From: a virus
DNA: 34,476 nucleotides
IMG/VR virus record: IMGVR_UViG_3300031862_000448
Coordinates: 1-34,476 of that record
Direction: 5' to 3' (one strand)
The notes under the pieces were generated by a model. It was not told the DNA's origin. It saw only the letters and a program-made list of their open reading frames with translations, and did not search any database. Below are positions 5,615 to 33,718 of this stretch, one piece after another; positions within the stretch are counted from its first letter, which is position 1, and each line of letters starts with the position of its first letter. The translations under genes were made by a program, and so were the position numbers.

Positions 5615-6433
5615 CTACGCGGTGTACTCTTCCCAGCGTCCGACCTGGTCGCCGGCGGGTCGGCTGGTGTCGGCCAGCACCGTGAGCTGGATCGGCAGGT
5701 CCACCTGCTCCTCCTTGCTCCAGGAAAGGGTGCCCGACGCCAGCACCGCGCACCGGTAGAAGGTGAGGGCGAACTTCCTGCCCGACCCGGCCGGCAGCAC
5801 CAGCATCACCGACTTCTCGGTGATCGCGGTGTCGCCGCCGAAGGTCAAACGCCGGCGTCCGGTGCCGAGGTCCTCGATGGAAGCCGAGATACCCCACACC
5901 TCCTTGATATGCTCCAGCGTGACTTCCGCCAGCGGCACCGCGAGCGAGAACGTCTCGCCCGCCTTGATGGTGCGCACCGGGAGCAGCGACTGGTCGACCT
6001 CGATATCCGAGGTCTCGACGCCGTGCTCCACATCGAGGGAGCCGTGGGTGTGCCCCATGAACAGCCCCTCGATGTAGATTTCCTCCACCGCTCCCTTGAT
6101 CACGTCGTCGGGTGAGAACGCGCCGGCGGTGAAGAAGAACAGCGCCTGGGCGACGGAGCCGTCCGGCGTGCTCTCCCCCGAATCAGAAACGCCCACATCG
6201 TTGAGGCCGTTGTCCCAGCCGTCCGTGTTCGCCGCGTCGATGGCGACTGTGAGTTCCGTCGCCGAGACGTAGGTCACCCGCGACGGGTCAACATTCTCCC
6301 AGGCGGTCTGACCGTGTTTGCGGTGGTAGACCTTGGTCTCGCTCGGGGCGTCCAGGAAGCCGGTGCCGATGATCTTGATCGCCGAGTCTCCCGCTTTCGC
6401 GTAACTCGGATACACATCCGTGATGGTTGCCAC
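5615..6433 (-). CDS. Major tail tube protein with N-terminal IPT/TIG domain
   Basis: This 272-residue protein should polymerise into the tail tube. It lies between the tail completion gene and the G/GT chaperones, the standard place for the tube protein. Residues 1 to about 100 look like an IPT/TIG immunoglobulin-like fold: ITDVYPSYAKAGDSAIKIIG opens it and TYVSATELTV follows in the middle. Residues about 105-272 are beta-rich (for example TFSLAVPLAEVTLEHIKEVW) and form the tube-like domain. Ig-like domains on tail tubes usually decorate the outer surface and may bind cell-surface sugars (family knowledge; not shown here). The GTG start at 6433 has an excellent AAGGAGG seven bases upstream, fitting high expression. 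A structural gene other than the tube is possible but less likely. Confidence 0.75.
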   Translation of the reverse strand: MATITDVYPSYAKAGDSAIKIIGTGFLDAPSETKVYHRKHGQTAWENVDPSRVTYVSATELTVAIDAANTDGWDNGLNDVGVSDSGESTPDGSVAQALFFFTAGAFSPDDVIKGAVEEIYIEGLFMGHTHGSLDVEHGVETSDIEVDQSLLPVRTIKAGETFSLAVPLAEVTLEHIKEVWGISASIEDLGTGRRRLTFGGDTAITEKSVMLVLPAGSGRKFALTFYRCAVLASGTLSWSKEEQVDLPIQLTVLADTSRPAGDQVGRWEEYTA

Positions 6434-10191: not shown

Positions 10192-11088
10192 TCAGGTCAC
10201 GCCAGTGCGAAGTGCCTGCTCCAGGCGATCCCCGGCCTCGGCGAGATTCTTGGGAGGCGGCGGGCTCTGTTGAGCCGGGTTGCTTGCCGCCCCCACGCTC
10301 TGCGGCTTTTGCTGTTGTGGCTGGGAGACCAGGTAGGGCTTCTCGTTGACCAGCGTCTCGACGACCTCGTCGATGCCCGTGACCTTGCCCTCATCATCCA
10401 CCTGCACCGCGCCAAAGCCGGGCAGTGACTTGGCGATGATGAAGGCGACATCGGGGTCGACGATGCCCTTCGACTGGGCGGCGAGCAGGAAGCGAGCGCG
10501 GATGGCGTCGTCCTTGCGGCCCGACGCCTCTTTCTCGCGCGCCTGTCGCTCTTTCTCGTAGAGCTCCTTGAAGCGCTCCTGCTCCTCGAGGGCCTTGCGG
10601 TCGGCCTCTTCCTGGGCCGCGGCGATCTCGGCCAGCCGTCGCTCCGCACCCTTGGCGCGGGCAGTCAACTGCGCAATGCGATCCCGCACCGCGCCGGTGA
10701 ACGTGTCGTCGCTCAACTCCAGGGTGCCGTCCTTGACTAGGCGGTCAATCTGCTCCTGAGTCAGCTTCACCTGGATGCCCTTCGCCTGTGTCGCCGGCGT
10801 TTGCGATTGCGCTTGCCCGCCCTCAGTCTGGCGAGTCTGGGCACCCTCGGCTTGCTGTCCCTGGGAAGCCTGCTGCGCGCCGGGCTGCCCCGTCTGCGCG
10901 GCCTGCCCACCAGACCCCGACTGCGTCTGCGCTGCGGGCTGGCCCGCTTGGCCGGCGCCGACCGACTGGCCTGCGCTCGCGCCCTGTGCAGCCTGCCCTG
11001 AGCCGGCCGACTGGGCCGACTGGGCGTCGGCCTGGCCCTGGCTGCCAGTTCCCTGCTGTCCCTGCTGGTTCTCGGTTCCTTCGCTCAT
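10192..11088 (-). CDS. Capsid scaffolding protein
   Basis: The 298-residue product acts inside the procapsid and should leave before packaging. Residues 1-95 are a low-complexity Gln/Gly/Ala/Ser tract with many SAGQA-like repeats. Residues about 98-230 hold LTQEQIDRLVKDGTLELSDD and then a highly charged coiled coil (ERFKELYEKERQAREKE). The C-terminal part (GIVDPDVAFIIAKSLPGFG and EVVETLVNEKPYLV) is typical of GP20-type scaffolds, where it contacts the coat protein. It lies just upstream of the major capsid gene. A GGAGGGAG precedes the ATG at 11088. No separate prohead protease was recognised in the window. Confidence 0.88.
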   Translation of the reverse strand: MSEGTENQQGQQGTGSQGQADAQSAQSAGSGQAAQGASAGQSVGAGQAGQPAAQTQSGSGGQAAQTGQPGAQQASQGQQAEGAQTRQTEGGQAQSQTPATQAKGIQVKLTQEQIDRLVKDGTLELSDDTFTGAVRDRIAQLTARAKGAERRLAEIAAAQEEADRKALEEQERFKELYEKERQAREKEASGRKDDAIRARFLLAAQSKGIVDPDVAFIIAKSLPGFGAVQVDDEGKVTGIDEVVETLVNEKPYLVSQPQQQKPQSVGAASNPAQQSPPPPKNLAEAGDRLEQALRTGVT

Positions 11089-11161
11089 GGTCTCCCTCCG
11101 GTCTTACGCCCCGCGGCGGGTCTGCCAGATGTCGCTCCGGCGGGCGGTTATGTCAGAGCCG

Positions 11162-11515
11162 CTAGTCAGCGCTCATGCCCTCCGGCGGCTCTTCATCCAT
11201 TGCGCCATAGTGCTTGCGGACGTGCGCCAGCGCGGCCACCCGTGCCGAGCGCGGCCACTTCACCCCGCCCCGCGCGCCGGACAGCGCAGCTGCCAGTGCA
11301 TGCACGCCATTGCGGTTCACCACCAGGGTGTCGCCCTGGAGTTCGTGATGCGGGCCGCCCCACTCGCTGCGGTTCTCAAGGTCGGGCACGTATGCGAAGG
11401 CCTCCCGGATCACGCCGGCGTCGCCGTTCTCCGCAAGCCGCCGCGCCAGGGTCGCCTTGTCCACGTCGCCCCACGCCCTGTCTGAAACCGTCGAGTTGTC
11501 TATCCGAATCGGCAT
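11162..11515 (-). CDS. Conserved phage protein of the capsid operon, function unknown
   Basis: The 117-residue product contains RAWGDVDKATLARRLAENGD, AYVPDLENRSEWGGPHHELQ and a basic part ending VRKHYGAMDEEPPEGM. I recognise this as a domain recurring next to or fused with phage head proteins, but I know no function for it. No Ser-His or HEXXH protease motif is visible. It is the first gene after the late promoter and structured leader at 11533-11667, and AGGAGG lies nine bases before the ATG at 11515. Its position just before the scaffold suggests a head assembly role (inference). Confidence 0.78.
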   Translation of the reverse strand: MPIRIDNSTVSDRAWGDVDKATLARRLAENGDAGVIREAFAYVPDLENRSEWGGPHHELQGDTLVVNRNGVHALAAALSGARGGVKWPRSARVAALAHVRKHYGAMDEEPPEGMSAD

Positions 11516-11532
11516 CGTGTGCCGCCTCCTGC

Positions 11533-11633
11533 AAAAGAAAAGGCGGGCACCTCTAACGGCCTGGGAATCTGCTTCCCAAGGACATCAGAAGTGCCCGCCT
11601 ATCGTTGCGATGCTGGCAGGCCCTATTCAGTTG
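11533..11633 (-). ncRNA. Structured leader RNA, copy 1 (conserved block, 12-bp stem, T-rich run)
   Basis: From a predicted start near 11633 the minus strand carries GCCAGCATCGCAACGATA (11617-11600), then a stem with arms GGCGGGCACTTC (11599-11588) and GAGGTGCCCGCC (11553-11542) that pair over 12 bases with one G-U. An inner hairpin lies at 11580-11560 (CTTGGGAA, loop GCAGA, TTCCCAGG). TTTTCTTTT follows at 11541-11533 and then the ribosome binding site. The block, stem length, inner hairpin and T-rich run recur upstream of the portal gene with compensatory changes. It could be an attenuator, an antitermination element like HK022 put, or a terminator for upstream readthrough. Function is inferred; sequence and pairing are seen. 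Confidence 0.7.
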
Positions 11634-11639
11634 GCACCC

Positions 11640-11667
11640 ATTCTACCGGACCCGGGCCGGGTGTCAA
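11640..11667 (-). promoter_or_regulatory. Late promoter P(capsid), sigma70-like
   Basis: The minus strand has TTGACA (11667-11662), a 16-base spacer and TAGAAT (11645-11640). Transcription would start near 11633 and reach the 117-aa, scaffold and capsid genes after a leader of about 118 bases. TAGAAT is shared with the portal-gene promoter at 15602-15630, and both are followed by the same leader block. Confidence 0.68.
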
Positions 11668-11671
11668 CAAC

Positions 11672-11690
11672 TTTTTCTTACCTGGAGGTA
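11672..11690 (+). promoter_or_regulatory. Repressor-operator-like sequence beside the capsid promoter
   Basis: TTTTTCTTACCTGGAGGTA matches 18 of 19 bases of the sequence inside the repressor promoter at 34086-34104. It contains the interrupted palindrome TACCT-GG-AGGTA. It lies just upstream of the -35 of the capsid promoter and overlaps the stop codon of the 63-aa gene. A binding site for the phage repressor or XRE regulator is inferred. Confidence 0.42.
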
Positions 11691-11869
11691 TGAGGTCGAG
11701 GCATCATCTCCCACATGTGGATCATCTCCTCGTAGCGGGCAATGGCGGCCCGCTCCCGTTCGTCCTCTGCCAGGCGCAGGTATTGCCGCAGTCGCCGCCG
11801 TGCTTCTCGCGGTGTCCTGGCTGACCAGATTGCCCTGTCGGCCTCGTGGATGAGCTGCTCTCGCATCAT
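11678..11869 (-). CDS. Small helical protein after MuF, function unknown
   Basis: The 63-residue product is highly charged and almost wholly helical, with ARTPREARRRLRQYLRLAED in the middle and Met/Trp-rich residues near the C-terminus. The ATG at 11869 overlaps the MuF stop as ATGA, so it is probably translated by reinitiation from MuF. The sequence is not recognised. Small helical proteins in this place may help assemble the portal-proximal complex (inference). Its stop lies within the operator-like sequence at 11672-11690, immediately before the capsid promoter. Confidence 0.62.
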   Translation of the reverse strand: MMREQLIHEADRAIWSARTPREARRRLRQYLRLAEDERERAAIARYEEMIHMWEMMPRPHTSR

Positions 11870-13887
11870 CGCCTCTCCGCCCGCGCTACCAGGGCTTCAA
11901 CCGCGTGCTCGCCCTGACTCTCCAGCGCAGCCTCGATCTCGATGGCTGTCATGCCCGCCTCCCGATAGGCCCCATGCATCCTCTGCGCCAGCGCCCAGAA
12001 CCGCTCCCGACGCGGGACACGATAAGCGAGGTCGAGGTAGACCTCTGGCTCGACCTCGCGCATCGGGTTCATCATCGAGCGCCCCGCCGATGGACCGGCG
12101 ACCGCCTTGGCGAGGAATTGCTGCCTCGGCACGTAGCTCGGCATGGCTGAGAAGTCCACCTTGTCCAGCCCTGACGAGAAGCCCATGACGCGCTCGAAGA
12201 GTTGCGGAGCGACGTGCTCCGAGGCCGCGCTGGTGACAGCCTCCTCCAACCATCGCTGGGCGGCCGTGGCGTATTCCTCCGGCGCGATCGCGCCCATAGT
12301 GCCCGCGGCATGGGTGGCTTCGTGCACCAACGTGGTGAAACTCGAAGTCATCTCCTGCCTGGCCCGCTTCGACAGTTGCGCCCAGGAAGCGGCGTTCTGC
12401 TTCGTGAGGCGAGTCAAGCGTTCTCGCACCTCTCCGCCAACTGTGATCGCGCAGTCCCAGTCCTTGTGCCCGCCGAAACCGCCTTTGCCAGTTCTGAGGT
12501 CTCCGTTCCACCCGACCTTGGTCTCCATCAGGCTGGCCAGCTCCTCAGAGACGCGGCGGGTCATCCCGGCCGCATCGGTGGGCTGCGGCTTCGGGGCAAG
12601 GGCGGCTGCGATCTGCCCGGTGCGCTTACCGCGCTCTGCCACGCCGAAGAAAGCCGGCCCGCTGATTGCCCGCTGCCCTGTGATCATCCGGGCGACATCC
12701 GTCAGCGAGCGATAGATGCCGCCCTCGAAATAGACCTTGCCTCCCTCTACTACCTGGACGAGGTACTCGCGGCCCTTGTAGGTGCGGCGCAGGACAGTCC
12801 CCTCCTCCAGGGCGCGCAGTTCTGGTTCCGGGATCGACGCCCGGGTGGGCTTGGGCCGTCCCCGCGTTGCAGCAACCCTCGCCCGCCCCGCCCGCGCAAA
12901 CTGCCGCTTTCCCGCGGCCCGGGCCACGCCAGGGAACTCCTTACGGAAGCGCCGCTGGAGCTCGGCCGGAGACTTGTTCAGCACATCGGGCGAGACGATG
13001 CCCCGCTTCTTCTCCTCGTCGGTAGCGAGGCGCTCTACAAACGGTGTGAGCACATGTACACACCGCGGGTGGAAAGGCGGGCCGCCGTTGATGGCGGAGA
13101 TTGGCGGATAGACAGGGTGCGGGCCGTCCAGAGAGACGACGGCGTTCTCGTAGTAGCGGCAGAAGTCTTCCGCGTTGTGCGCCGATACCTGGGCGAGGGT
13201 GACGCCGTGCTCCCGCAGCCGATTGATCGTGCCCTGCGTCATCGCCTCACGCGTGGTCGTGCGCGCCACCATCTCGGCATAGCGGTCGAGCGGCCACTGT
13301 CGCCCGAGCGCGTCCACAAACGTCGGCCTACCTGCAGCGATCAGCCGCTGCTCCAGTTCGCGGCTCACGTCGATGCGAGCACGCCCGGCTGCGATCCCTC
13401 TCGCGACTGCCAGCATCCCCTCGCGCCGGAACACGTCGTCAACGCGGCGGCCGATCTGGGTAAGCGCCGCATTAGTGGTCTGCAGCATGGACTCCGTGAT
13501 TGCCCGCGTCGCTTCCCGGTGCACCTGGGAGAATACATCCCTCTCACGGCGACCCGTTATCGTTCTGTCTCGACGGCGCAGGTTGATTCCCGCGCGGCGG
13601 ACATTGCGGACTCCTTCGTCGGCGAACTCGAGCCCGACATCGTAAGCGCGAGGGATGTTGAGTTCTATCCAGGCAGCGGCTTCGTCACCGAGGTCGGCGA
13701 GGATCACCTGATACTGTCGCAGCAGTGCCACGGCTCGACCCCGCTGTCCCGCGAGTACGGTAGCGTCGGCCAGCACATCCATCATGTCCGCCGCCGCGTC
13801 CCGATACAGGGCGGCCAGAGAGTCTATCTCGCCGGTGAATGCCCGCCGAAACTCCTCAATGCTGCGGCGCCCGATGGGAGGAGGCAC
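11866..13887 (-). CDS. MuF-type minor capsid protein fused to DUF2924/RAMA-like and zincin domains
   Basis: The 673-residue protein follows the portal, the usual place of SPP1 gp7/Mu gpF proteins that sit near the portal and may enter the cell with DNA. Residues about 110-290 form the MuF part, with AEMVARTTTREAMTQGTINR, HNAEDFCRYY and the ending PPFHPRCVHVL. Residues about 355-420 (RRTYKGREYLVQVVEGGKVY, then YRSLTDVARMITGQ and GPAFFGV) resemble DUF2924 and the related RAMA fold, found in restriction-modification proteins. Residues about 490-560 contain HEATH at 522-526, an HEXXH zincin motif, with Glu548/Glu549 in WLEEAVTSAASEH a likely third ligand. MuF proteins are known to carry variable C-terminal effector or toxin domains, so the zincin may be an injected protease, or a capsid maturation enzyme (both inference). 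The GTG at 13887 has AGGAG nine bases upstream. Confidence 0.85.
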   Translation of the reverse strand: MPPPIGRRSIEEFRRAFTGEIDSLAALYRDAAADMMDVLADATVLAGQRGRAVALLRQYQVILADLGDEAAAWIELNIPRAYDVGLEFADEGVRNVRRAGINLRRRDRTITGRRERDVFSQVHREATRAITESMLQTTNAALTQIGRRVDDVFRREGMLAVARGIAAGRARIDVSRELEQRLIAAGRPTFVDALGRQWPLDRYAEMVARTTTREAMTQGTINRLREHGVTLAQVSAHNAEDFCRYYENAVVSLDGPHPVYPPISAINGGPPFHPRCVHVLTPFVERLATDEEKKRGIVSPDVLNKSPAELQRRFRKEFPGVARAAGKRQFARAGRARVAATRGRPKPTRASIPEPELRALEEGTVLRRTYKGREYLVQVVEGGKVYFEGGIYRSLTDVARMITGQRAISGPAFFGVAERGKRTGQIAAALAPKPQPTDAAGMTRRVSEELASLMETKVGWNGDLRTGKGGFGGHKDWDCAITVGGEVRERLTRLTKQNAASWAQLSKRARQEMTSSFTTLVHEATHAAGTMGAIAPEEYATAAQRWLEEAVTSAASEHVAPQLFERVMGFSSGLDKVDFSAMPSYVPRQQFLAKAVAGPSAGRSMMNPMREVEPEVYLDLAYRVPRRERFWALAQRMHGAYREAGMTAIEIEAALESQGEHAVEALVARAERR

Positions 13888-13890
13888 GCT

Positions 13891-13983
13891 TCAACACTCC
13901 TCACGACAGGTGCTGAGACCATGTCCACAGCCCCGAAACCAGACTGCGGGTGCAACATGTCGGATCACACACATCCACCACAT
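13891..13983 (-). CDS. Possible 30-residue protein between portal and MuF
   Basis: An ATG at 13983, five bases after a GAGG, opens a 30-codon frame beginning MWWMCVIRHVAPAVWF. It fills the gap between the portal and MuF genes almost exactly, ending three bases before the MuF GTG. It is Trp-, Cys- and Arg-rich with no recognised family. It may only carry ribosomes through the gap. Support is limited to spacing and a modest ribosome binding site. Confidence 0.28.
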   Translation of the reverse strand: MWWMCVIRHVAPAVWFRGCGHGLSTCREEC

Positions 13984-13990
13984 GGGCGCC

Positions 13991-15469
13991 TCAGGCGCCC
14001 TCTGCCCCGGCCTCCGGCTGCTCCACGGTGCGGGCTTCCTGCCCCTTGCGACCGCCCGCCCCGGTGAGGGCAATTGCCTGTCCCGTCTCCTCGCCGATGC
14101 GCGCCATCTCGGTTTCCACTGCGTCTGGTCCGTCCAGCCGCCGCACCGAGGACTCGACTGACGTGTTGCCTGCCGCCAGGCGCTGGCTCTCGATCTCCAC
14201 CATCTCGACCATGTCCTCGGGCAACCCGTCCGCCCACTGGATGGTCGGCTCGGCAGGCTCGTACTCTCCTGAGCCGTGCGTCACGTCGAGCATCTGCGCG
14301 GTGAGCAGCGCGGCCTTGAGCGCGGTATCGTAGTAGAGGCGCTTGCGGTTGATCTTCGCCAGGGTGCGGAGTAGACGCAGCCGCAGTGCCCGGCCACTCT
14401 CGGCGACTCCGAACTTGTCCAGCCCGAACGCGGAGGGTGCAGTCTCGGAAAGCATGAAGAGCAGGTCGAGCAGCTTCTCGAACTGCGTGAATGCTGCAGT
14501 CAGGTGGGCGTCCCAGGTGATGTAGGAGGGCGGCTGATCGCCCGGGCCCAGCTCGATGGTCTCCATGCGGTCGAAACGAATCTTGCCATCCTCGTCCACG
14601 AAACCAGGCGGCACCACAATCTTCGGAGCGACGTGCTTGTCCAGCACCTCGTCGATCTGGGAGACGCGGTTGTTCAGGGACTCGAAGAGCGACTCCAGGC
14701 CCTCGTAGTCGGAGATACCCCAGAAGCGCGAGCCGTAGCGGAAGTTGGGCACGTGGAAGATCGGGATGTGATCCAGGCCGGTTTGCTCTTCCTCCGGCAG
14801 GTCCTGGTAGGCTTCGAGGGTGTTCAGGGGAATCTGCTGGAGCGCCTTGCCGCCAATCGTGATCGTCCCAACCTGACTCCCGGCTACGGACAGTGTCGAG
14901 ACGCTGCCCAGATCGAAGAGTTGGTACCGGATAACGCCCGGCTCGTGCACCTCCGCCCGAAGATAGGCACGCTTCGTGTCCTTCGGGTCGCGCTTCACCC
15001 AGGCCAGGGTCACCCGCAGCACGCGCCGCACATCATCATCGTCCACTTCGGGGAAGTAGATGCTGGCCGGGACCTCCTCGATGATCGACTCGGGTTGCTC
15101 TGCTGTCGGCGTGCGCTTCCCCCAGCGCACCTTGTAGACCGCGTCGCCTCGGAACGAGTTGGACAGGGCCGATTCGTAGTTGACGGCATGGAGGTTATTG
15201 CGGGCGACGATACCGGCCAGCGCTTCCTGCGCCTTCTCATCATCCTGAGTCGCCAGGAAGTCCGGCTGTTCCCCGAAGAGCAGATCTGCCGACAGCCGTG
15301 AGATCAGTCCGGCGAAGTTCGCCACGATGTAGCGCTTCATCTGGTAGGGCTGCGGCACCACGGCAAAGACCAGCTTATGCTGCCCCAGGAACAGCCGCTC
15401 ATACCGCTGGTAAGTGGCGATGCGCTCCTGGTGCCCTTTGGGCGGGTAGGTTGTCAGGTCGAGTGCCAT
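13991..15469 (-). CDS. Portal protein (SPP1 gp6-like)
   Basis: The 492-residue protein should form the dodecameric portal through which DNA is packaged and ejected. Family features include an N-terminal stretch FAGLISRLSADLLFGEQPDF near residues 52-71, IPIFHVPNFRYGSRFWGISD near 230-255 followed by LESLFESLNNRVSQIDEVLD, and TAPSAFGLDKFGVAESGRAL near 345-365. The C-terminal acidic and Gly-rich tail is typical. The gene follows terminase and a small protein and precedes MuF. The frame is open to 15511, but the ATG at 15469, with GGAAG upstream, fits the family start. It is preceded by the second structured leader RNA and its promoter, so it may head its own transcript. Confidence 0.92.
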   Translation of the reverse strand: MALDLTTYPPKGHQERIATYQRYERLFLGQHKLVFAVVPQPYQMKRYIVANFAGLISRLSADLLFGEQPDFLATQDDEKAQEALAGIVARNNLHAVNYESALSNSFRGDAVYKVRWGKRTPTAEQPESIIEEVPASIYFPEVDDDDVRRVLRVTLAWVKRDPKDTKRAYLRAEVHEPGVIRYQLFDLGSVSTLSVAGSQVGTITIGGKALQQIPLNTLEAYQDLPEEEQTGLDHIPIFHVPNFRYGSRFWGISDYEGLESLFESLNNRVSQIDEVLDKHVAPKIVVPPGFVDEDGKIRFDRMETIELGPGDQPPSYITWDAHLTAAFTQFEKLLDLLFMLSETAPSAFGLDKFGVAESGRALRLRLLRTLAKINRKRLYYDTALKAALLTAQMLDVTHGSGEYEPAEPTIQWADGLPEDMVEMVEIESQRLAAGNTSVESSVRRLDGPDAVETEMARIGEETGQAIALTGAGGRKGQEARTVEQPEAGAEGA

Positions 15470-15489
15470 TGTCGTCTTCCTATCTGCCT

Positions 15490-15505
15490 CCGGGCTTCGG
15501 CCCGG
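15490..15505 (+). other. Short hairpin in the portal leader
   Basis: CCGGGC, loop TTCG, GCCCGG form a perfect six-base stem-loop. On the plus strand the loop is the very stable UUCG tetraloop; the minus-strand transcript would have CGAA. It lies between the T-rich run of the portal leader and the portal start codon, so it may affect initiation. Confidence 0.45.
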
Positions 15506-15511
15506 GGGCAC

Positions 15512-15595
15512 AAAAGCAAAAGGCGAGCCCCACCCTGGGTAACCAGGAATGTGAGGCCCGCCTATCGTTGCGATGCTGGCGGAAGTTATTCGGTT
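15512..15595 (-). ncRNA. Structured leader RNA, copy 2 (same block and stem as copy 1)
   Basis: After a predicted start near 15595, the minus strand repeats GCCAGCATCGCAACGATA and the next seven bases exactly (25 of 25 with copy 1; 15580-15556). The stem arms are GGCGGGCCTCAC (15562-15551) and GTGGGGCTCGCC (15533-15522), pairing over 12 bases with two G-U pairs. Several positions differ from copy 1 on both arms, so pairing is kept by compensating changes. The inner hairpin is CCTGG, loop TTAC, CCAGG. TTTTGCTTTTG follows. The portal ATG is about 126 bases from the predicted start. Confidence 0.7.
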
Positions 15596-15843
15596 GACGG
15601 CATTCTATGCCGGATGCCAGTGCCCGTCAACGGCGGCCGGGTCTTTCCCAGGCGGTAGCACGAGCGGCGCTCAAGGACATCGACCTGGGTCGGCAGCCCA
15701 TCGTAGTAGGAGACGCGAATCACCACATCTCCGTAGCCGCACACCGACTCGGCCTCGCGTTGCAGTGCCTCCACGAGGTCATCCCAATGCTGCTTCTCCC
15801 TCGAAACCTGTCCTGAGCCCGCTGAAGGCATAGCCGTCACCAC
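15586..15843 (-). CDS. Small DUF2292/YezD-like protein
   Basis: The 85-residue product contains GYGDVVIRVSYYDGLPTQVD followed by VLERRSCYRL, close to the short beta pattern of the DUF2292 (YezD-like) family, whose function is unknown to me. The N-terminal 35 residues are helical. It overlaps the end of the terminase gene: the GTG at 15843, or the next GTG at 15840, which forms a GTGA overlap with the terminase stop. Its C-terminal codons contain the promoter for the portal leader (15602-15630). It is likely a small accessory packaging or regulatory protein, but this is only inferred from position. Confidence 0.65.
   Translation of the reverse strand: MVTAMPSAGSGQVSREKQHWDDLVEALQREAESVCGYGDVVIRVSYYDGLPTQVDVLERRSCYRLGKTRPPLTGTGIRHRMPSTE
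15602..15630 (-). promoter_or_regulatory. Late promoter P(portal), sigma70-like
   Basis: The minus strand has TTGACG (15630-15625), a 17-base spacer and TAGAAT (15607-15602), inside the 3' end of the 85-aa gene. Copy 2 of the leader block starts 21 bases after the -10, against 22 bases in copy 1. Both intervening stretches contain CAAC(C/T)GAATA. Confidence 0.65.
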
Positions 15844-17459
15844 CCGGCCGGTCGCTGCGTCGTGCCCCTGGACATTCCCCGTTTGCGCGCCTGCCAGGCG
15901 ATCCCGGCTGCCATCACCCGATCGTCAAACTTGCCCTCCTGCGCTTCCTGGGCACCCGTGTCCGTGGTGACGAAGGTCAGGCATTCGTCCACCAGATCGG
16001 GCGAGTGAATCAGCAGGTGGCCTCCTGCGATGGCTGCCGCCAGGTCATCCACCAGGATGGGCTTGGTGGCCTGGTCGGTGGGCCAGCCGAGCATGGGCTT
16101 CCCCCTGCCCGTCTGGTCGTAACGCACGTGGTAATAGAGCCGCGGGTAGCGGCACACATTGCGCAGCGTGTTGAGCGTGGAGTGCCCGTGGTTGTTGCGC
16201 TCCACCGCCACCGTCGCCAGGTTGTAGAAGCGCCCCAGGGCATCCAGCAGGTAGCCGAATCTGTCCGGCGGAATGCGCCCGTGCAGTTCGGCGACCTGCT
16301 CCCCGGTCTCGCGATCCAGGACACAGGCACATGATGCGTCGCCGCCCGCAAGTCCTTCGCCAACGTCAGCGCCCACCACGTAGAGTCGCCCCTTCTCCAG
16401 CCGCTTCCACACTGACAGCCGGGCAGGTGCAACCCCAATGCCCTGTTCCCGTGCATCCTTGAGGGTGGCCAGCATCTCCGGCGCGGTCTCTGCGGCGATG
16501 CGCGCCTGTGCGAGGAGCAACGCATCCGTGTCGAAGCAGCACCGCCCGCTCGCCAGGAAGCAGGTCACGTCGTCCTCAGGATACTCCTGCCGGAACCGCT
16601 CCCGCAGTTGTCGCTGCTTGCTGCGCCGCCAGCGAATCTGGTCGTCATCCAGGTTCCAGGCCCGCTTGAACCTTCGCTCCTCGTCGGTCAGGTCGTCGAG
16701 CGGCGCGCCGGCAATCCGGTTCTGCGGGTCTTCCCACCAGACGTATAGGTGCGTGGCAAACTCGTTCCCGCCGCCCTTTGCTTCCGCCCAAAGATCGTGA
16801 AAGTAGTTGCCCATACCATTGGCGGTGGACTCGATCACGATCCGCCCATCGGCTGGCACCGCCTCCGTGAGCGCGACCAACGCCTCCTGGGGCTTGGGCC
16901 AGAAGGCGAACTCGGAGCAGTGCAGGTTGTTGATCGTCTGCCCGCGCCCGAAGGTGAGCGCCCCGGCCGTCCCCACGTAGAACTGGCTGTTGATCGCCGG
17001 CCACAGGAACTCCCGCCGGTTGGAGAAGCGCGGCTCACCTGCTCGCAGGCGCTCCTGCTCCGGCAGTCGCTCCCAGAACAACTGCACGATGCGGAATATC
17101 TTCTCGCTCGAATCCGTGTCATGGGCCACGATCACTGAAGTAGTGTTGGGCCGCAGGATCGTATCAGCGAAGAACAGCCCGCAGATCACGGTGGTGAAGC
17201 CCAACTGCCGCGGCTTGAGGATGATGTCCCGAAGCCTGCGGTGATCCCAGTAATCCACCTGGGCCGCGTTGAGCAGGAACGGGATCACGCGCCTATCTTT
17301 CGTGCGAATCCACAGGTTCGCTTCGATCCACGGCCTGGGGTTCCGCCGCATCTCCAGCAGCACCTCCAGCCTCGCCTCCAGCACGCGCCGCACACGCTCG
17401 GAGGAAGGCAAGGGCAGATTCGGCCTCGCAGTCGCTGAGTCGGCGCAGGTCGAGGTCAC
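15837..17459 (-). CDS. terL: Terminase large subunit
   Basis: The 540-residue motor cuts concatemeric DNA and pumps it through the portal. The N-terminal ATPase has a variant Walker A-like segment KPRQLGFTT (about residues 83-91) and a strand ending LHCSEFAFW (about 179-187), where Ser-Glu stands in for the usual Asp-Glu, with IVIESTANG as motif III near 208-216. The RNase H-like nuclease has YVVGADVGEG (Asp near 365), VAVERNNHG (Glu near 420) and KFDDRVMA (Asp near 512). The GTG at 17459 is chosen because AGGAGG lies nine bases upstream; a TTG three bases earlier is possible. The start lies about 170 bases inside the small subunit gene. Confidence 0.95.
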   Translation of the reverse strand: MTSTCADSATARPNLPLPSSERVRRVLEARLEVLLEMRRNPRPWIEANLWIRTKDRRVIPFLLNAAQVDYWDHRRLRDIILKPRQLGFTTVICGLFFADTILRPNTTSVIVAHDTDSSEKIFRIVQLFWERLPEQERLRAGEPRFSNRREFLWPAINSQFYVGTAGALTFGRGQTINNLHCSEFAFWPKPQEALVALTEAVPADGRIVIESTANGMGNYFHDLWAEAKGGGNEFATHLYVWWEDPQNRIAGAPLDDLTDEERRFKRAWNLDDDQIRWRRSKQRQLRERFRQEYPEDDVTCFLASGRCCFDTDALLLAQARIAAETAPEMLATLKDAREQGIGVAPARLSVWKRLEKGRLYVVGADVGEGLAGGDASCACVLDRETGEQVAELHGRIPPDRFGYLLDALGRFYNLATVAVERNNHGHSTLNTLRNVCRYPRLYYHVRYDQTGRGKPMLGWPTDQATKPILVDDLAAAIAGGHLLIHSPDLVDECLTFVTTDTGAQEAQEGKFDDRVMAAGIAWQARKRGMSRGTTQRPAGW

Positions 17460-18000: not shown

Positions 18001-18645
18001 TCACTCCTCTGTCGGCGTGTCATCGGTTCCTTGCAGGTAGACTTCACATACGCGCTCCAGGCATTGCCCGCGACGCGCGTTCCTGCCCAGTTCCTCCTTC
18101 GCTGCCGCCATCGCTCGCTCGAACTGCTCGTGTTCCCTGCCAAGTAAGACGACGGTCACCGGAATGGGCGCCTCGGCTGCGTCGCGGGCTGCCTGCTCCT
18201 CCAGTTTGTCCTGCAGGTCGGCGGGGAGCTTCAGGAGCTCCAGGGAGTCGCGCAACTGGCTGGCCGACCAGGGCAGCATCTTCACCAGATCGTCCACGGA
18301 GTAGGTGCGGTTCAGGTCGTGCACTAGGTTGGCGAGCCGCACTGGTATTGGCTGACCCCGCAGGTAGTTGAGCTGGAGGCCCCGCACCTTGGCCTCTTCG
18401 GGCGAGATGTCCCATACCTCGCAGGGCAGTTCTTCGAGGCCGAGGTCGCCCGCCGCCTTCCAGCGGTGATAGCCGTCCACCAGTAGAAAGTCGCCCTCGC
18501 GCTCAGGGTCGGGCATGACCTTGAGCGGCTCCATGATGCCTTTCTCCCGGATGCTCTCTACCAGCTTCGGATAGTTGGCTGGGTCGAAGGCGTTCGCGTT
18601 CCACTCGTTCGGTCGAATGCGCTCTCGCGCGATCATCTCAGGCAT
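18001..18645 (-). CDS. ParB/Srx-fold protein
   Basis: The 214-residue product has the ParB/sulfiredoxin N-terminal domain at about residues 1-85: VESIREKGIMEPLKVMPD, then the phosphate-binding loop LVDGYHRWKAAGDLG, and LPCEVWDISPEEAKVRGLQL. A helix-turn-helix region follows at about 100-145 (YSVDDLVKMLPWSASQLRDS). In phages such proteins lie near terminase and may act as DNA-binding regulators, CTP-dependent clamps or nucleases; no partition partner ParA is seen. A GGGAGGT precedes the ATG at 18645, which overlaps the end of the DUF4406 gene by eight bases. Its position as last gene before the late promoter is compatible with a late regulator (inference). Confidence 0.82.
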   Translation of the reverse strand: MPEMIARERIRPNEWNANAFDPANYPKLVESIREKGIMEPLKVMPDPEREGDFLLVDGYHRWKAAGDLGLEELPCEVWDISPEEAKVRGLQLNYLRGQPIPVRLANLVHDLNRTYSVDDLVKMLPWSASQLRDSLELLKLPADLQDKLEEQAARDAAEAPIPVTVVLLGREHEQFERAMAAAKEELGRNARRGQCLERVCEVYLQGTDDTPTEE

Positions 18646-27274: not shown

Positions 27275-27293
27275 CGGCGAATGAAGAGAGACA

Positions 27294-27319
27294 GCCGCCG
27301 TGGCCGGAGCCACGGCGGC
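27294..27319 (-). terminator. Terminator-like hairpin after the SbcC gene
   Basis: Perfect 11-base arms (GCCGCCGTGGC at 27294-27304 and its complement at 27309-27319) enclose CGGA on the plus strand. The hairpin begins 14 bases after the SbcC stop and is followed on the minus strand by TGTCTCTCTTCATT, pyrimidine-rich but with no pure U-run. It may partly end the recombination transcript. Confidence 0.6.
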
Positions 27320-27333
27320 GAGATGCTTGACTG

Positions 27334-29604
27334 TCAGGCCGCGATCATCTGCACGCGGCTGCCCTCCGCATTCTTTGTGACCTCGAAGCGGAAGGGGAAC
27401 AATTCCTTGAGTTCCTCCACGTGGGTGATGACAAGGATGGTGGCGAAGCGCTCGGCCACCTTTTGGAGGCACTCGACGAACAGCGCCCGCCCCTGCGCGT
27501 CCAGAGGTGCGGCGGTCTCGTCCAATACCAGGAGTTCGCAGCGCGCGCCGGCGCGACTGGCGAGCAGCACGGAGAGCGCGATACGCAGGGCGAGGTCAAC
27601 TCTCATCGCCTCGCCGCCGGAGAAGTTCTCGTAGGGCCGCGAGCCGCGCTCGTCGGCGATGATGATGTCCAGCGTCTCCTGGAGCGTCTTCGCCTTGGTC
27701 TCCCGTTGGCTGCGAAGCTCCAGGGACATGCGGCCATCGCTCAGCACCGACAGCACATCGTTGGCGACGGCCTCCAGGTCAGGCACGGCCTTCTCGATCA
27801 GCAGCGCCGGGATGCCCTGCTTGCCGAAGGCCTGGGCGAGCACCTTGAGCACCTGCAGGCGACGCTCGCCTTCGCGCAGTTCAGTCGCCAGCCGCTCGGC
27901 TTCCTTCGCTGCTTCCTCGGCTGCTCGCAGACGCTCCTCCAGGCTGCCCCGCTGCTGCCGCAGGGACTGGATGCGAGCCTGGAGATCGCCAATCGCAGCC
28001 CGCGTCTCCTTGATGTTCCGCTCCACCTGCGCCAGCATCGCATCCCAGTTGCGCTGAGGGCCGAGTTCCTTCTCGAGGGCAGCCTTGCGCTCCGCGATCT
28101 GCTTCGCCTCGGCCTGGATCGCGTCCAAGTTGGCCTGCACCTCGACCATCTGGGCTTCGGCGCGCTCGACTCCGCGCAGCGCCTGCTGGAGTTCCTGAAG
28201 TCGCGCCGCCTGGCGCTTGGCTTCGGCGTGCTCCTTCGGGGCGTAGGCGATTTCCGTGCGCTGCTCGGCAATCTCACGCAGGCGTGCGGCCTCTTCGTCA
28301 CCAGCGGTCTGGCCCTGCAGCTCGGTGAGTTTGCACTCGTCCTCCGCCCAGGGCTGCTCTGACTGCAATTGCTTGTGTCGGTCTTCGAGCCCCGGCAGTG
28401 CAGCTCGCGCTTCACGCGCCTGCGCAATGAGCGGACAACCCTCCGCCAGTCCCTTCGCGTCCCGCGCCATGCACGGTACCTGGTCAAGGACTGCGCTCTG
28501 CTTGGTGAGCAGCGCAATCTGCTGATTGAGGCCTTTGACCTCGCGCTCGTGTGAGGCTCGCAGGTGCTGGATGCGCTCCTTCAACGCGTCCACCTTGCGG
28601 GCATGCTCTGCGACTGCGGACTGCTGCCGCTGGCGAACGAGTTCGGCCTCGTGGCGCAGCCGCTCATCCTCTTGGCGCTTGGCCTCCAACTCCTGGGAGT
28701 ACGTCTGCGCCTCTTCGGCCCGCCGCAGGCCTTCGAGAATGGCGGGCTTGTCCTTCACCGTCCGGCGCAACGTCTCGAGCCGGGACGCAACTTCGCTTAT
28801 GCCGGCCTGCGCCCGTTGCGCCCGGGCGGCAAGGTCATCGAGTTCCTTGCGGCGAGCGCGGTCAGCCTCCCGATCGCGCAGGAGCGCCTCCTTCGCCTCC
28901 TGCGCTTGGGCAAGGTCGCCCTCGGCTTGCGCCGATTGCCGCGCCACGTCGCCCTGTGTGGCTTCATTCTGGGCGACCTGCTCCCGTAAGCCGTCCACTG
29001 CAGCAGCCGCAGCACACAGCGTCTCGTGGCGCGCCTTTTCGCCCTCGATGCGCGCTGCCAGGTCGCGCCCTATCTGCCGCGTCATCTCTGCGCGGCGCTC
29101 CCAGGCGGCCAGGTCGAGAATGTCAGAGAGCACCTGCTTGCGCTCTGCTGGCTTGGACTGGCTGAAAGCGGCCGCATTGCCCTGGTTGGCGCAGGCGGTG
29201 ACAGTGAAGAGGTCATCCGTCAGGCGGAGCGCCTGCTCGATGCGAGCCTGAGTCTCGGCCACCGATTTGCCGTCCAGCACCGCCGAACCGTCGCCGTTCG
29301 TCATCTGGAACGAAAGCAGCGTGCTCCCGCTCCCCTTGCGGCTGCGAGCGCGACTGACGAGGTAGGTCTCCTCCCCCAGGGCGAAAGCAAACTCCACGCG
29401 GCAGTCCTGCTCGCCCTCGGTGATCACGCCATCCAGACCGCCACGAGTGTGGCCAAAGAGGGCAAAGCGAATGCCGTCGATCACGCTTGACTTCCCGGCC
29501 CCGTTCTGGCCTGTGAGCGCGGCGAGGGTAACGCCATCGAACTCTATGGTGTGCTCGCCGCGATAGGAGAGGAAGTTGTTCAGGGAGAGGCGGAGGGGCC
29601 TCAT
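27334..29604 (-). CDS. Rad50/SbcC-like ATPase of the recombination nuclease
   Basis: The 756-residue protein is the ATPase partner of the SbcD-like nuclease. Walker A is TGQNGAGKSS (31-40), the Q-loop CANQGN lies near 138-143, the ABC signature NFSGGE near 660-665 and Walker B LLVLDE near 691-696. Two long coiled coils flank the hook region at about 370-395. There the cysteines are Cys378 and Cys390 (VPCMARDAKGLAEGCPLI), spaced by 11 residues and not the normal CXXC zinc hook. It should process double-strand ends for phage recombination and replication, as T4 gp46/gp47 do. The ATG overlaps the upstream stop as ATGA. Confidence 0.94.
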   Translation of the reverse strand: MRPLRLSLNNFLSYRGEHTIEFDGVTLAALTGQNGAGKSSVIDGIRFALFGHTRGGLDGVITEGEQDCRVEFAFALGEETYLVSRARSRKGSGSTLLSFQMTNGDGSAVLDGKSVAETQARIEQALRLTDDLFTVTACANQGNAAAFSQSKPAERKQVLSDILDLAAWERRAEMTRQIGRDLAARIEGEKARHETLCAAAAAVDGLREQVAQNEATQGDVARQSAQAEGDLAQAQEAKEALLRDREADRARRKELDDLAARAQRAQAGISEVASRLETLRRTVKDKPAILEGLRRAEEAQTYSQELEAKRQEDERLRHEAELVRQRQQSAVAEHARKVDALKERIQHLRASHEREVKGLNQQIALLTKQSAVLDQVPCMARDAKGLAEGCPLIAQAREARAALPGLEDRHKQLQSEQPWAEDECKLTELQGQTAGDEEAARLREIAEQRTEIAYAPKEHAEAKRQAARLQELQQALRGVERAEAQMVEVQANLDAIQAEAKQIAERKAALEKELGPQRNWDAMLAQVERNIKETRAAIGDLQARIQSLRQQRGSLEERLRAAEEAAKEAERLATELREGERRLQVLKVLAQAFGKQGIPALLIEKAVPDLEAVANDVLSVLSDGRMSLELRSQRETKAKTLQETLDIIIADERGSRPYENFSGGEAMRVDLALRIALSVLLASRAGARCELLVLDETAAPLDAQGRALFVECLQKVAERFATILVITHVEELKELFPFRFEVTKNAEGSRVQMIAA

Positions 29605-30023: not shown

Positions 30024-30301
30024 GTCGCACCTCCTTCCTGGAGCGCCTGCGCCACAGCCGCGAGATCCAGCAAGAACGTGCGTTCATCGCCATCGAGCCG
30101 CACGACCTGCCCCGCGACAGTGGGTGGGCCTTCGAAGTGCACCGCTGCTGGCTCCCCGTCTCTCGCCTCTATCGCGATCTGTGCGTTCTCGACGGCGTCG
30201 AACAGGCACATCAACCGCAGCTGGCGGAGGGTGAGATCCTCCAGGCGCGTTGGCCAACCGCGCAGGAGACGTGCGATGTCATCGTCCGATATGTGGGTCA
30301 T
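30020..30301 (-). CDS. Small hypothetical protein of the recombination operon
   Basis: The 93-residue product begins MTHISDDDIARLLRGWPTRL and contains LRQLRLMCLFDAVENAQIAI and VVRLDGDERTFLLDLAAVA. It is not recognised. The ATG at 30301 is supported by GAGGAGG eight to nine bases upstream within the mini-cistron that precedes it, and it overlaps that stop as ATGA. The frame continues upstream to 30427 but without a start site of that quality. Confidence 0.65.
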   Translation of the reverse strand: MTHISDDDIARLLRGWPTRLEDLTLRQLRLMCLFDAVENAQIAIEARDGEPAAVHFEGPPTVAGQVVRLDGDERTFLLDLAAVAQALQEGGAT

Positions 30302-30339
30302 AGGACTCCTCCTCGCATGTAGAACTCCAGGTCGGTCAT
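30298..30339 (-). CDS. Thirteen-codon mini-cistron, MTDLEFYMRGGVL
   Basis: This 13-residue frame overlaps the preceding stop as ATGA at its start and the next start as ATGA at its end, with a GGGAGGTG five bases before its own ATG. Its codons for Arg-Gly-Gly form the ribosome binding site of the following gene. It is either a real micropeptide or a translational coupling device. The arrangement is seen in the sequence; expression is inferred. Confidence 0.5.
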   Translation of the reverse strand: MTDLEFYMRGGVL

Positions 30340-30662
30340 GCTGCACCTCCCTGCTTCGCTCGCTGTCTTTCAGCAAGCACTCCCAAGTGTTCGCTCCGCT
30401 GCCTCTCTTCGTCCTCCGCTTCCTCATGGCCGACGGTGCGGAGACTGGCCCTGTCGGATTGGCGACTCAAGAGGATGAGGTGTTCAAATACATCGGCGAA
30501 GCGGGCCAAGTTCAGTGCTGCGGTCGACAACCAGCACTCCGAGAAGGTGTTCTCGACCTCTTCTGACTGACGCTCCAGCTCTGCGTAGAACTGGCAGTCG
30601 CTTCGGCAGGGCTCCTTTGTGAATGGACAGAACTCGTCGCGGAACTTGGGGAACTTGCTCAT
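30336..30662 (-). CDS. Cysteine-rich small protein
   Basis: The 108-residue product has an N-terminal cluster FCPFTKEPCRSDCQFY (Cys12, Cys19, Cys23) and a fourth Cys at 43, probably binding zinc. The C-terminal half is highly charged and helical. The ATG overlaps the SbcD-like gene stop as ATGA and its stop overlaps the mini-cistron. The CPFT...C...C pattern recurs in small phage proteins, but I know no function. A DNA- or protein-binding accessory of the nuclease complex is possible (inference). Confidence 0.68.
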   Translation of the reverse strand: MSKFPKFRDEFCPFTKEPCRSDCQFYAELERQSEEVENTFSECWLSTAALNLARFADVFEHLILLSRQSDRASLRTVGHEEAEDEERQRSEHLGVLAERQRAKQGGAA

Positions 30663-31879
30663 GCCGCACCTCCCGCCAGTTCGCGTTCAACAGCCTGGGC
30701 TTCGGTGAGCAGGGCTTCGCGCATGGGCTTGAGTTCTGGCTTCTGTTCGAGGTAGGCGTCAATCGCTGCCTCAAGCGCCATCTCCGAAGAGACCTCGACT
30801 GCCCTGCGACGCACCGCCTCTGCGCGCTGCGTCTCGAGCTGATATTCATGCACGCCAGCGGCCTCGAGATCTCGGCGCAGGGCGTTGAAGTCCACATCAT
30901 CGGCCTGCGGGACACGCACCCGCACAATCGCGCCGGCGAGTTCCTCCGGTGGCGGCAATGCTACTCCGTCGCCGAATTCCACGGTGATGAATCGGCGGTA
31001 GGGCGTGCTGACCCGCTTGACCTCCGCAATGCCATTCGCCTCAATGGAGACCAGGAGAAAAGACTTGTCTTCACCCTCCTCTCCGAATGTCACCGCTTCA
31101 GGGGAACCGCAATACCACATGTGCGGCTGACCGCCGACCATCTGCGGTTTGTGAATGTGACCGAGAGCGAAGTAGCAGAAGGGGAGCGCGGACAGATCGT
31201 GGGCGTTCAGCGTCCACTCGCCTCCGAGCATCATCAGCCGGTTCTGCCCGCCCGCCTGCGCCAGGTCGACAGAGAAGTGACCCAGCAGTAGCGCAGGAAC
31301 GTCAGGGGTGAGCTGCGCCGCGAGTCCGCGCAGGCAGTCCATCATCTTCTCCCGCACCAGTTCGTTCAGCTGGCCGGGGTCGAGTTTGCGGTTCTCTTCA
31401 CTCGCCAGCAGAAGCTGCTTGTTGGGCCAGGGCAGACAGGCCACTTGAAGGTCAGCCTGCTTTGCCGCGCACGGTCGCAGGAAGTCGCGCTGTTCGGTCT
31501 CAAGGTGTTGGAAGAACAGCAGCGTTGGCTGGTCTATCACTACCAGCCCCTCAGTCTCCCTCAGCAGGTCGAGGGCATGCCGTTCCACCGGAGACCGGGG
31601 TGCGTCATGGTTGCCGAGAAGCAGCACCACGGGCACCCCGGCCTCCAGGGCCGGCCCGACCGCCTCACGGAAGAGCCGCACTTCCGTCGGCGTGGGCCGA
31701 CAGCCGTGAAACGCATCGCCTGCGTGCAGGATGGCCTGCGCGCCGCGAGCGATTCCATCCTCGACGGTGAACCGCGCGCAGCGGTAGAAGTCCATGAGAC
31801 GGGCGTTCAGGCCGGTTTCTGAGTCGAGCCTGCTCCGCTGCGAGGAGAGATGCCAGTCCGCGGTGTGAACGAACTTCAT
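30659..31879 (-). CDS. Mre11/SbcD-like nuclease
   Basis: The 406-residue product is a calcineurin-fold nuclease. Metal-binding motifs are visible in order: HTADWHL (Asp8, His10), HAGDAFHG (Asp55), LLGNHDAP (Asn90, His91), LGHFSVD (His201) and LGHIHKPQ (His241, His243). The C-terminal part is acidic and helical, suited to dock on the Rad50-like partner. The ATG at 31879 is preferred to 31915 because the first motif starts at residue 5 and the ATG overlaps the upstream stop as ATGA. It works with the ATPase at 27334-29604 on DNA ends. Confidence 0.94.
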   Translation of the reverse strand: MKFVHTADWHLSSQRSRLDSETGLNARLMDFYRCARFTVEDGIARGAQAILHAGDAFHGCRPTPTEVRLFREAVGPALEAGVPVVLLLGNHDAPRSPVERHALDLLRETEGLVVIDQPTLLFFQHLETEQRDFLRPCAAKQADLQVACLPWPNKQLLLASEENRKLDPGQLNELVREKMMDCLRGLAAQLTPDVPALLLGHFSVDLAQAGGQNRLMMLGGEWTLNAHDLSALPFCYFALGHIHKPQMVGGQPHMWYCGSPEAVTFGEEGEDKSFLLVSIEANGIAEVKRVSTPYRRFITVEFGDGVALPPPEELAGAIVRVRVPQADDVDFNALRRDLEAAGVHEYQLETQRAEAVRRRAVEVSSEMALEAAIDAYLEQKPELKPMREALLTEAQAVERELAGGAA

Positions 31880-32076
31880 CTGGCACCTGCCGTCGCAGTG
31901 ACGAAGGCCGGGCATTGCCAGTGGGCCGGCATGCTACGCCGGACGCGCTCAGGGGTAATGGGCCGGCCCAGCCTGTCCTGCGGACAAGGGCAGTTGGGGC
32001 CTTCAAGTGCACCGGCCTTGCGGCGCTTGAAGTGCGGGCACTTCCAGCAGTTCTGCTGCAGAGCATGCTGACTCAT
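31876..32076 (-). CDS. Small zinc-binding protein
   Basis: The 66-residue product contains NCWKCPHFKRRK (Cys10, Cys13), NCPCPQDRLG (Cys29, Cys31) and a late Cys55, consistent with a zinc-stabilised domain. The ATG at 32076 overlaps the stop of the 413-residue protein gene as ATGA and its stop overlaps the SbcD start, so it is translated in series. The middle (RRSMPAHWQC) is basic. It is not recognised; a small DNA-binding partner of the recombination proteins is possible. Confidence 0.66.
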   Translation of the reverse strand: MSQHALQQNCWKCPHFKRRKAGALEGPNCPCPQDRLGRPITPERVRRSMPAHWQCPAFVTATAGAR

Positions 32077-33460: not shown

Positions 33461-33718
33461 TCACCTCCTTGCTTCGAGGGTTTGCAGCTCTTGCTGCAGC
33501 CGGGCGACTTGCTGGCGCAGGCGCTTCTCCCGCCGGCCGCGGTGGCTCTCCAGGGTTCTCTCCCGGCCCTCTCCGTTGTCGGAGAGCCACGCCCTCACGA
33601 GCGCCTCCCGCCGCCTGGCCTTGCCTTCCGGCAGGGGCTCGGTGGCCACTACCTCCACCGTAAACCCCTCCAGGCTCTGGCAGCCGTTGCCAGCGTCTAT
33701 TGTCGCCTGGCAATCCAT
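33461..33718 (-). CDS. Small coiled-coil hypothetical protein
   Basis: The 85-residue product has a short N-terminal part with GFTVEVVATEPLPEGKARRR and a C-terminal helix (RREKRLRQQVARLQQELQTL) likely to form coiled coil. The ATG at 33718 follows GAGGT and lies three bases after the stop of the XRE gene. A second frame starting at 33722 covers the same bases but has a Gly/Arg/Pro-rich composition typical of a shadow. It is the second gene of the early operon. Confidence 0.6.
   Translation of the reverse strand: MDCQATIDAGNGCQSLEGFTVEVVATEPLPEGKARRREALVRAWLSDNGEGRERTLESHRGRREKRLRQQVARLQQELQTLEARR

Follow-up and report, generated by a model that had tools for sequence, protein, structure and literature searches.

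The question raised by this locus is why the same structured RNA should stand twice, about 4 kb apart, before the late genes of a phage. The window, that is, the whole stretch of DNA analysed, is an IMG/VR phage contig of 34,476 bases with a G+C content of 65%. Its genes lie nearly all on the minus strand and include those for an SPP1-like portal, an SU10-type capsid protein, a scaffold, and a terminase; the two leaders are intergenic and read leftwards. The best explanation, to which we give a probability of about 0.7, is an attenuator that locks the virion genes and is released by p85, the product of a small gene beside the second leader; termination in the cell and use of the promoters are inferred here. 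The parts are as follows.

11640..11667, minus strand: sigma-70-type promoter of leader 1, TTGACA-16-TAGAAT; the leaders of relatives have an equal arrangement in front
About 11633..11533, minus strand: leader 1
11624..11632, minus strand: conserved single-stranded element of leader 1, AACTGAATA
11593..11621, minus strand: predicted antiterminator hairpin 1, with outer arm GCCTGCC/GGCGGGC, a 2x1 internal loop, and inner stem-loop ATCG-CAA-CGAT
11533..11600, minus strand: predicted intrinsic terminator 1 and U-tract; its 5′ arm AGGCGGGCAC is the reused 3′ arm of the antiterminator
11162..11515, minus strand: 117-aa gene after leader 1, followed by the scaffold and major capsid genes; same place in relatives
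15602..15630, minus strand: sigma-70-type promoter of leader 2, TTGACG-17-TAGAAT, within the end of the p85 gene
About 15596..15512, minus strand: leader 2
15587..15595, minus strand: conserved single-stranded element of leader 2, AACCGAATA, overlapping the p85 stop codon (ACC GAA TAA)
15556..15582, minus strand: predicted antiterminator hairpin 2, with outer arm CCGCC/GGCGG and the inner part as in copy 1
15512..15563, minus strand: predicted intrinsic terminator 2 and U-tract; its 5′ arm is common to the antiterminator
13991..15469, minus strand: SPP1-like portal gene, first after leader 2; the reading frame reaches GTG 15511, and homologues suggest ATG 15469
15586..15843, minus strand: p85, a small gene between terminase and leader 2, encoding the candidate antiterminator protein (predicted helix and β-hairpin)

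Most of what the original prediction had described from the letters is borne out. The duplicated 25-bp block GCCAGCATCGCAACGATAGGCGGGC is present without a mismatch at 11593-11617 and again at 15556-15580, and none of 100 shuffles matches it with three mismatches allowed. The promoters said to lie just upstream of each copy are indeed directly upstream of the blocks, and 11000-16500 holds no promoter-like site besides these two, 0.4 being the number expected. The T-run after each stem is present, as is the ribosome binding site behind leader 1 (AGGAGG upstream of ATG 11515). The arms of the stem do differ between the copies with pairing kept, and the core leaders fold with z = -8.0 and -5.6. 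Block and stem are both real, but they overlap: the final ~8 nt of the block form the 5′ arm of the terminator, the stem of which in copy 1 is AGGCGGGCAC...GTGCCCGCCTTTTCTTTT, and the remaining block pairs with the same ~8 nt to give an alternative hairpin, whose competition with the stem had been overlooked. GGCGGGC is thus both the 3′ arm of the block hairpin and the 5′ arm of the terminator, so that the two folds exclude each other, which is the design of an attenuator. To the earlier description, CAAC[CT]GAATA can be added, a conserved string in the interval between promoter and block.

Two copies alone would be thin ground for reading compensating changes as selected RNA structure, as had been claimed, and relatives were gathered through searches with the portal, terminase, and capsid proteins. 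The block sequence is unconserved even between phages whose portals are 95% identical, but the layout is kept; of the two things that homologues had been expected to share, the structure is retained and the sequence is not. A detector for stems that lie behind a promoter and have one arm in common with a terminator returned 103 matches versus nine in reversed sequence, duplicates included, as the same loci were often fetched repeatedly; removal of duplicates and false positives left 51 distinct leaders. The three-strand design is kept in about 50 distinct relatives, which come from related phages and from one group whose head genes are unrelated. Among 37 aligned distinct leaders, 87.9% of cells are paired versus 37-45% in slid controls, and 32 cells carry two-sided changes versus 11 ± 3.4 when shuffled, with such changes at 7 of the 11 pairs, which makes the evidence for compensation strong. 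Given that the detector selects for pairing, the percentage paired in the outer stem is biased upward, but the inner stem is unselected; its pair 35/47, no part of the terminator, is formed by AU in 16 leaders, GC in 13, and UA in two. The shared arm covaries with the 3′ arm of the terminator as well (GGCGGGC/GCCCGCC, GGCGACC/GGTCGCC, GGCAGGC/GCCTGCC, and CGAGCCG/CGGCTCG). These results support the view that the leader is a selected RNA structure.

The covariance model built from it, R1, finds exactly two leaders in the window, at 44.6 and 43.5 bits, the next score being 13.3, and it recovers the leaders of the relatives, mostly two per relative. The claim in the original prediction that no described RNA family is known to hold this block agrees with Rfam 15, in which the phage leader matches no family above the gathering score. 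Other searches were less productive. An exact search of IMG/VR with 16 nt of the block gave six matches in unrelated contexts, the level of chance, and R1 in 399 Bacillota genomes gave a single match (E 0.004) that lacks the overlapping terminator and is read as chance. R1 gave nothing convincing in the Moorella, Heliobacterium, and Ammonifex records or in the regions read of Paenibacillus Tripp and Microbacterium Shocker, and it does not confirm the detector matches in record L163.

Folding gives the two structures a predicted order and a default. RNA ending at the shared arm adopts the antiterminator fold in 44 of the 51 leaders, whereas full-length RNA adopts the terminator fold in all 51, never keeps the antiterminator, and pays a median of 9.6 kcal/mol when forced to do so. 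Since the terminator wins at full length, the predicted default is termination, and readthrough would need the hairpin to be stabilised. Two exclusive folds, one of them an intrinsic terminator, were found before a gene, and all the genes concerned are virion genes: the leaders stand before portal, capsid-accessory, major capsid, or tail genes, with one leader of the relatives before the portal and the other usually before the 117-aa, scaffold, and capsid genes. In one phage, G021 (record L220), there are four leaders; the genes behind them are a capsid-accessory gene, the one for the major capsid protein, a homologue of the window gene at 5615-6433, and a late tail-end gene. Its leaders at 4776 (major capsid gene) and 9086 (5615-6433-type gene) lack a visible promoter, and one promoterless leader directly follows another hairpin. 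Taken with the gene positions, these copies suggest that the element serves virion genes and may act at a distance from a promoter. It appears very probable that the leader is a regulated transcription attenuator in front of virion genes, and of the three roles offered originally, attenuation fits best, hairpin and terminator sharing one arm in the 51 leaders examined.

A simpler view would be that the terminator merely ends the upstream operon and the hairpin serves the processing or stability of abundant virion mRNAs. The expected high expression of the genes behind the leaders and the two G021 copies without a promoter would suit it, but in most cases the promoter lies upstream of the terminator, which would then silence its own promoter, and the conserved shared arm, like the matching of hairpins within a phage described below, is left unexplained; we regard this view as improbable.

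Readthrough would call for a partner of the hairpin, and the hairpins themselves differ from phage to phage. In 19 phages with both copies, the distance between inner hairpins is 0.095 within a phage versus about 0.43 between phages, and none of 20,000 permutations gave a within-phage distance as low; removal of near-duplicates gave the same outcome. The window carries AGCATCGCAACGATA twice, L023 carries GGCGTTGACACGACGA twice, and the loops of G011 are AAAA twice, while the two hairpins of G001-G003 have different stems with identical unpaired GA / ATAA / A. Copies that match within a phage and differ between phages imply a phage-specific trans factor, one phage-made molecule reading both copies. 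The matching bears directly on the suggestion that the RNA might itself modify polymerase, as put of HK022 does, with no factor at all. A structured RNA directly after the promoter and two copies per phage, as in HK022, are what one would expect of it. Put RNA, however, acts without a phage protein, while the loops here vary among close relatives (95% identical portals) and match within each phage, which points to a variable partner, and the leader RNA alone is predicted to end as a terminator. Such a put-type RNA fits poorly and is very improbable.

Hairpin matching is accompanied by a conserved single strand, AAYYNAATA, which is present in 33 of the 51 distinct leaders, with another NAATA in six and none in 12. 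In L009, where the promoter is more distant, the element still lies close to the hairpin. The stop codon of p85 falls within it in the portal leaders, but that AACYGAATAG might be a mere stop codon of p85 was rejected, as second leaders keep the element without that reading frame, often as GAATAC or GAATAT. AAYYNAATA resembles the boxC RNA bound by NusA in Mycobacterium tuberculosis, GAACUCAAUAG. A fragment of NusA binds boxC-like RNA (PMC6614801), and by analogy NusA may act at the element.

This combination recalls the lambdoid nut sites, boxA and boxB with N, in which a linear element is likewise joined to a phage-specific hairpin in copies matched per phage. The original prediction had considered a leader through which a phage antiterminator loads. 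In such a scheme, host Nus factors would grip AACYGAATAG, a phage protein would sit on the boxB-like hairpin, many later terminators would be ignored, and the overlap with the first would be secondary. The conserved single strand, the phage-specific hairpin, and the likeness to boxC speak for this, but the analogy is partial. The arm shared with the terminator is kept in the 51 leaders examined and would be needless for pure loading, the element is missing in 12 leaders, and the four leaders of G021 look as though each acted locally. A gene of the NusG/LoaP type was not found in these contigs either (NusG family, PF02357, 0 of 16 records, with controls positive and some contigs maybe fragments). 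The leaders also differ from nut sites in that they precede late genes and share a hairpin arm with the terminator, p85 is not an arginine-rich peptide, no boxA was recognised by eye, and no N-like gene was identified. A loading site of this kind is unlikely.

For the factor of the attenuator, attention falls on p85. The protein diverges much faster than its neighbours (window versus L009: portal 96%, p85 about 35-42%), and its distances track those of the portal-leader hairpin with r = 0.66 (partial 0.66 given the portal; 0 of 2000 permutations), in contrast to terminase (0.00), portal (0.11), and minor capsid protein (0.08). The same holds for the unlinked hairpin 4 kb away, past the portal and minor capsid genes (r = 0.54, partial 0.55, 0 of 2000), for which the correlation with structural genes is about 0 after control. 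Of the genes tested, p85 is the only one whose divergence tracks the hairpins. Restricting the set to p85-type phages without duplicates lowers r to 0.36-0.38 (11 and 9 of 2000). Part of the correlation could stem from co-inheritance with the adjacent hairpin together with homogenisation of the two copies. Position and transfer point the same way: a leader lies within 400 nt of a p85 match in 44 of 47 cases, p85 is absent from all 26 distant portal relatives, and a DNA-pattern scan brought up the leader in further phages whose terminase (phrog_38), portal (phrog_2662), protease, and capsid form an unrelated set. Upstream of the leader in this group lies a p85 homologue that had been no part of the model (E about 1e-16). 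In L249, another small reading frame stands between this homologue and the leader. On covariation, position, and co-transfer, p85 is rather probably the factor of the attenuator.

Its biochemistry is less telling. The predicted structure, a helix and a β-hairpin, is mostly confident at residues 10-61 (mean pLDDT 75.7) and matches no solved fold in the PDB, and the pI of 6-7 is not basic, so direct RNA binding is not obvious. In about four records (G001-G003, G011, L011), an unrelated gene, p93, the predicted structure of which has low confidence, takes the place of p85; these records carry GA/A-type hairpins of a related class. The switch might thus work as described with a factor encoded elsewhere, by another phage gene or the host, and p85 as a hitch-hiking neighbour: p85 adjoins one of the leaders, its pI is neutral, and it can be replaced by p93. 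Against this, the hairpin 4 kb off tracks p85, while the intervening portal and minor capsid genes do not, p85 and the leader still occur together in phages whose head genes are unrelated, and a cassette bringing a new hairpin without its factor should fail. We hold a factor elsewhere to be somewhat unlikely. Several other candidates were dropped: the ParB-like proteins occur in every contig covering the region but are widespread in other phages, and the 85-aa frame at 33461-33718 and the 63-aa arginine-rich frame at 11678-11869, both considered as N-like, have no match in PHROGs and are not universal. Tblastn with the p85 of L009 gave no match in the phage collection, and the p85 profile gave nothing in 300 Bacillota genomes, a scan that had no positive control.

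With p85 as the releasing factor, the switch may be pictured as follows. A constitutive-looking sigma-70 promoter would produce a short RNA from a presumed start site, and in the emerging RNA the block would presumably fold first into the small antiterminator hairpin. Once the next ~50 nt are made, the far more stable terminator would take the 3′ arm of the hairpin, and transcription would stop. A phage factor on the small hairpin would hold its fold and let polymerase escape, a need suggested by the folding energies and the matching within phages. Accumulation of the factor would lead to readthrough and, judging from gene order, turn the virion genes on. That factor is most likely p85, from the last gene before the first lock, which would then have to bind RNA and promote readthrough. 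What is proposed for this large group of uncultured phages is an RNA-level lock on late genes, for which a candidate protein and a putative specificity code between hairpin loop and p85 allele can be named; so compact an RNA switch might also serve as a tool.

Among known systems, the closest in design is that of RAT and BglG, SacY, or LicT, in which a hairpin of ~30 nt, its internal loops asymmetric, includes bases of the 5′ arm of an intrinsic terminator and a protein holding the hairpin permits readthrough, as one would here. The overlap with the 5′ arm is found in the phage leaders, which differ in sequence, in the virion genes downstream, and in the extra conserved single strand. The BglG-type RNA-binding domain (CAT, PF03123) occurs in 0 of 16 phage records, some of them fragments, with control genomes positive. 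In genomic terms, the likeness is to lambda pR′-tR′-Q, with a strong late promoter, a terminator as lock, and a candidate activator encoded by the last gene before it. Lambda Q, however, recognises DNA at the promoter and pause, whereas the conserved feature here is an RNA structure, a hairpin overlapping the terminator. LoaP acts on dfn, a small leader hairpin before an intrinsic terminator, to give protein-dependent readthrough (PMC12691694). The phage leader likewise has a small hairpin ahead of an intrinsic terminator, but the dfn hairpin is of the UNCG type and separate from the terminator. A search for the ANTAR/EutV domain (PF03861) gave no match in the phage records, with the controls silent too. 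By analogy, the leader is filed here as probably working like RAT/BglG-type antitermination from a place in the genome equivalent to that of the lambda Q switch. Membership in the BglG or LoaP family is not assigned because their defining proteins were not found.

A possible cellular counterpart comes from OscA/DUF2292 proteins. DUF2292 (PF10055) is weakly matched by 2 of 19 p85 proteins (best E 0.031), four p85 proteins have no match to NCBIfam (NF033785), and a profile-profile comparison of p85 with DUF2292 (hhalign) gives E 0.00085 with a probability of 24%; the resemblance is marginal and the homology only a lead. Like these proteins, p85 has a helix followed by a YG-V...DG motif. OscA is described as a small protein, with no function assigned to it, that is linked to sulfate transport and sulfur starvation (PMC2996968), and the Bacillota DUF2292 proteins resemble OscA in NCBIfam, 'sulfur starvation response' (NF033785), below the cut-off. 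An OscA-like protein gave no tblastn match in the plasmid collection.

DUF2292 genes occur in 34 of 200 Bacillota genomes, and at 9 of 28 loci a GA/A hairpin that overlaps a terminator lies no more than 200 nt past the stop codon, the design of the phage leader; the same scan gave eight elsewhere in 168 kb, one in 174 kb reversed, and none in 129 kb of other bacterial loci. By eye, a few further loci have the element (L265, L277, and L292), and elements after DUF2292 genes were noted at L263, L266, L268-L270, L272, L273, L275, L277, L285, and L292. Nine such hairpin loci gave no match in Rfam to E 0.5. A GA / A internal loop, an inner stem of ~4 bp, an outer arm shared with a terminator, and a small gene alongside are thus found together in both settings: twelve Bacillota and four class II phage hairpins fit one alignment with 89.6% paired and 18 two-sided cells versus 5.5 ± 1.8, while the hairpin of the window has diverged, with AG instead of GA. 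Among the genes beyond the Bacillota elements, three encode the PUA-like domain of ATP sulfurylase, one belongs to the PALP family and is taken to be cysteine synthase, and another encodes a corrinoid-binding protein. It is conceivable, as a tentative proposal, that OscA/DUF2292 and p85 form an unrecognised class of RNA antiterminators with hairpins of their own, which in Bacillota would gate sulfur assimilation, and that phages took the module for their virion genes. If true, this would give OscA/DUF2292, the sulfur-starvation protein, its first testable molecular role.

Several features of the contigs are recorded in their own right. A hot spot for cargo lies between the late leader and the small gene upstream of it, with examples such as an AbiEi/AbiEii-like-looking pair in G001-G003 (about 30072-32732 in G003, record L212) and a 516-aa gene in L012 (1192-2742). 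One to four ParB-N proteins lie by the terminase genes in the window (18001-18645) and its relatives, some of them longer and with a methylase-like part. The longer contigs have in common an SbcC/SbcD-like pair together with a conserved 413-aa protein that has no match in Pfam (window 27334-29604, 30659-31915, and 32073-33314). Where the contig ends (33722-34475), divergent genes for Cro/cI-like helix-turn-helix proteins suggest that the phage of the window is temperate. Lastly, a strong terminator-like hairpin without a promoter lies near the end of the SbcC gene (27292-27342, minus strand), possibly marking the end of an early operon.
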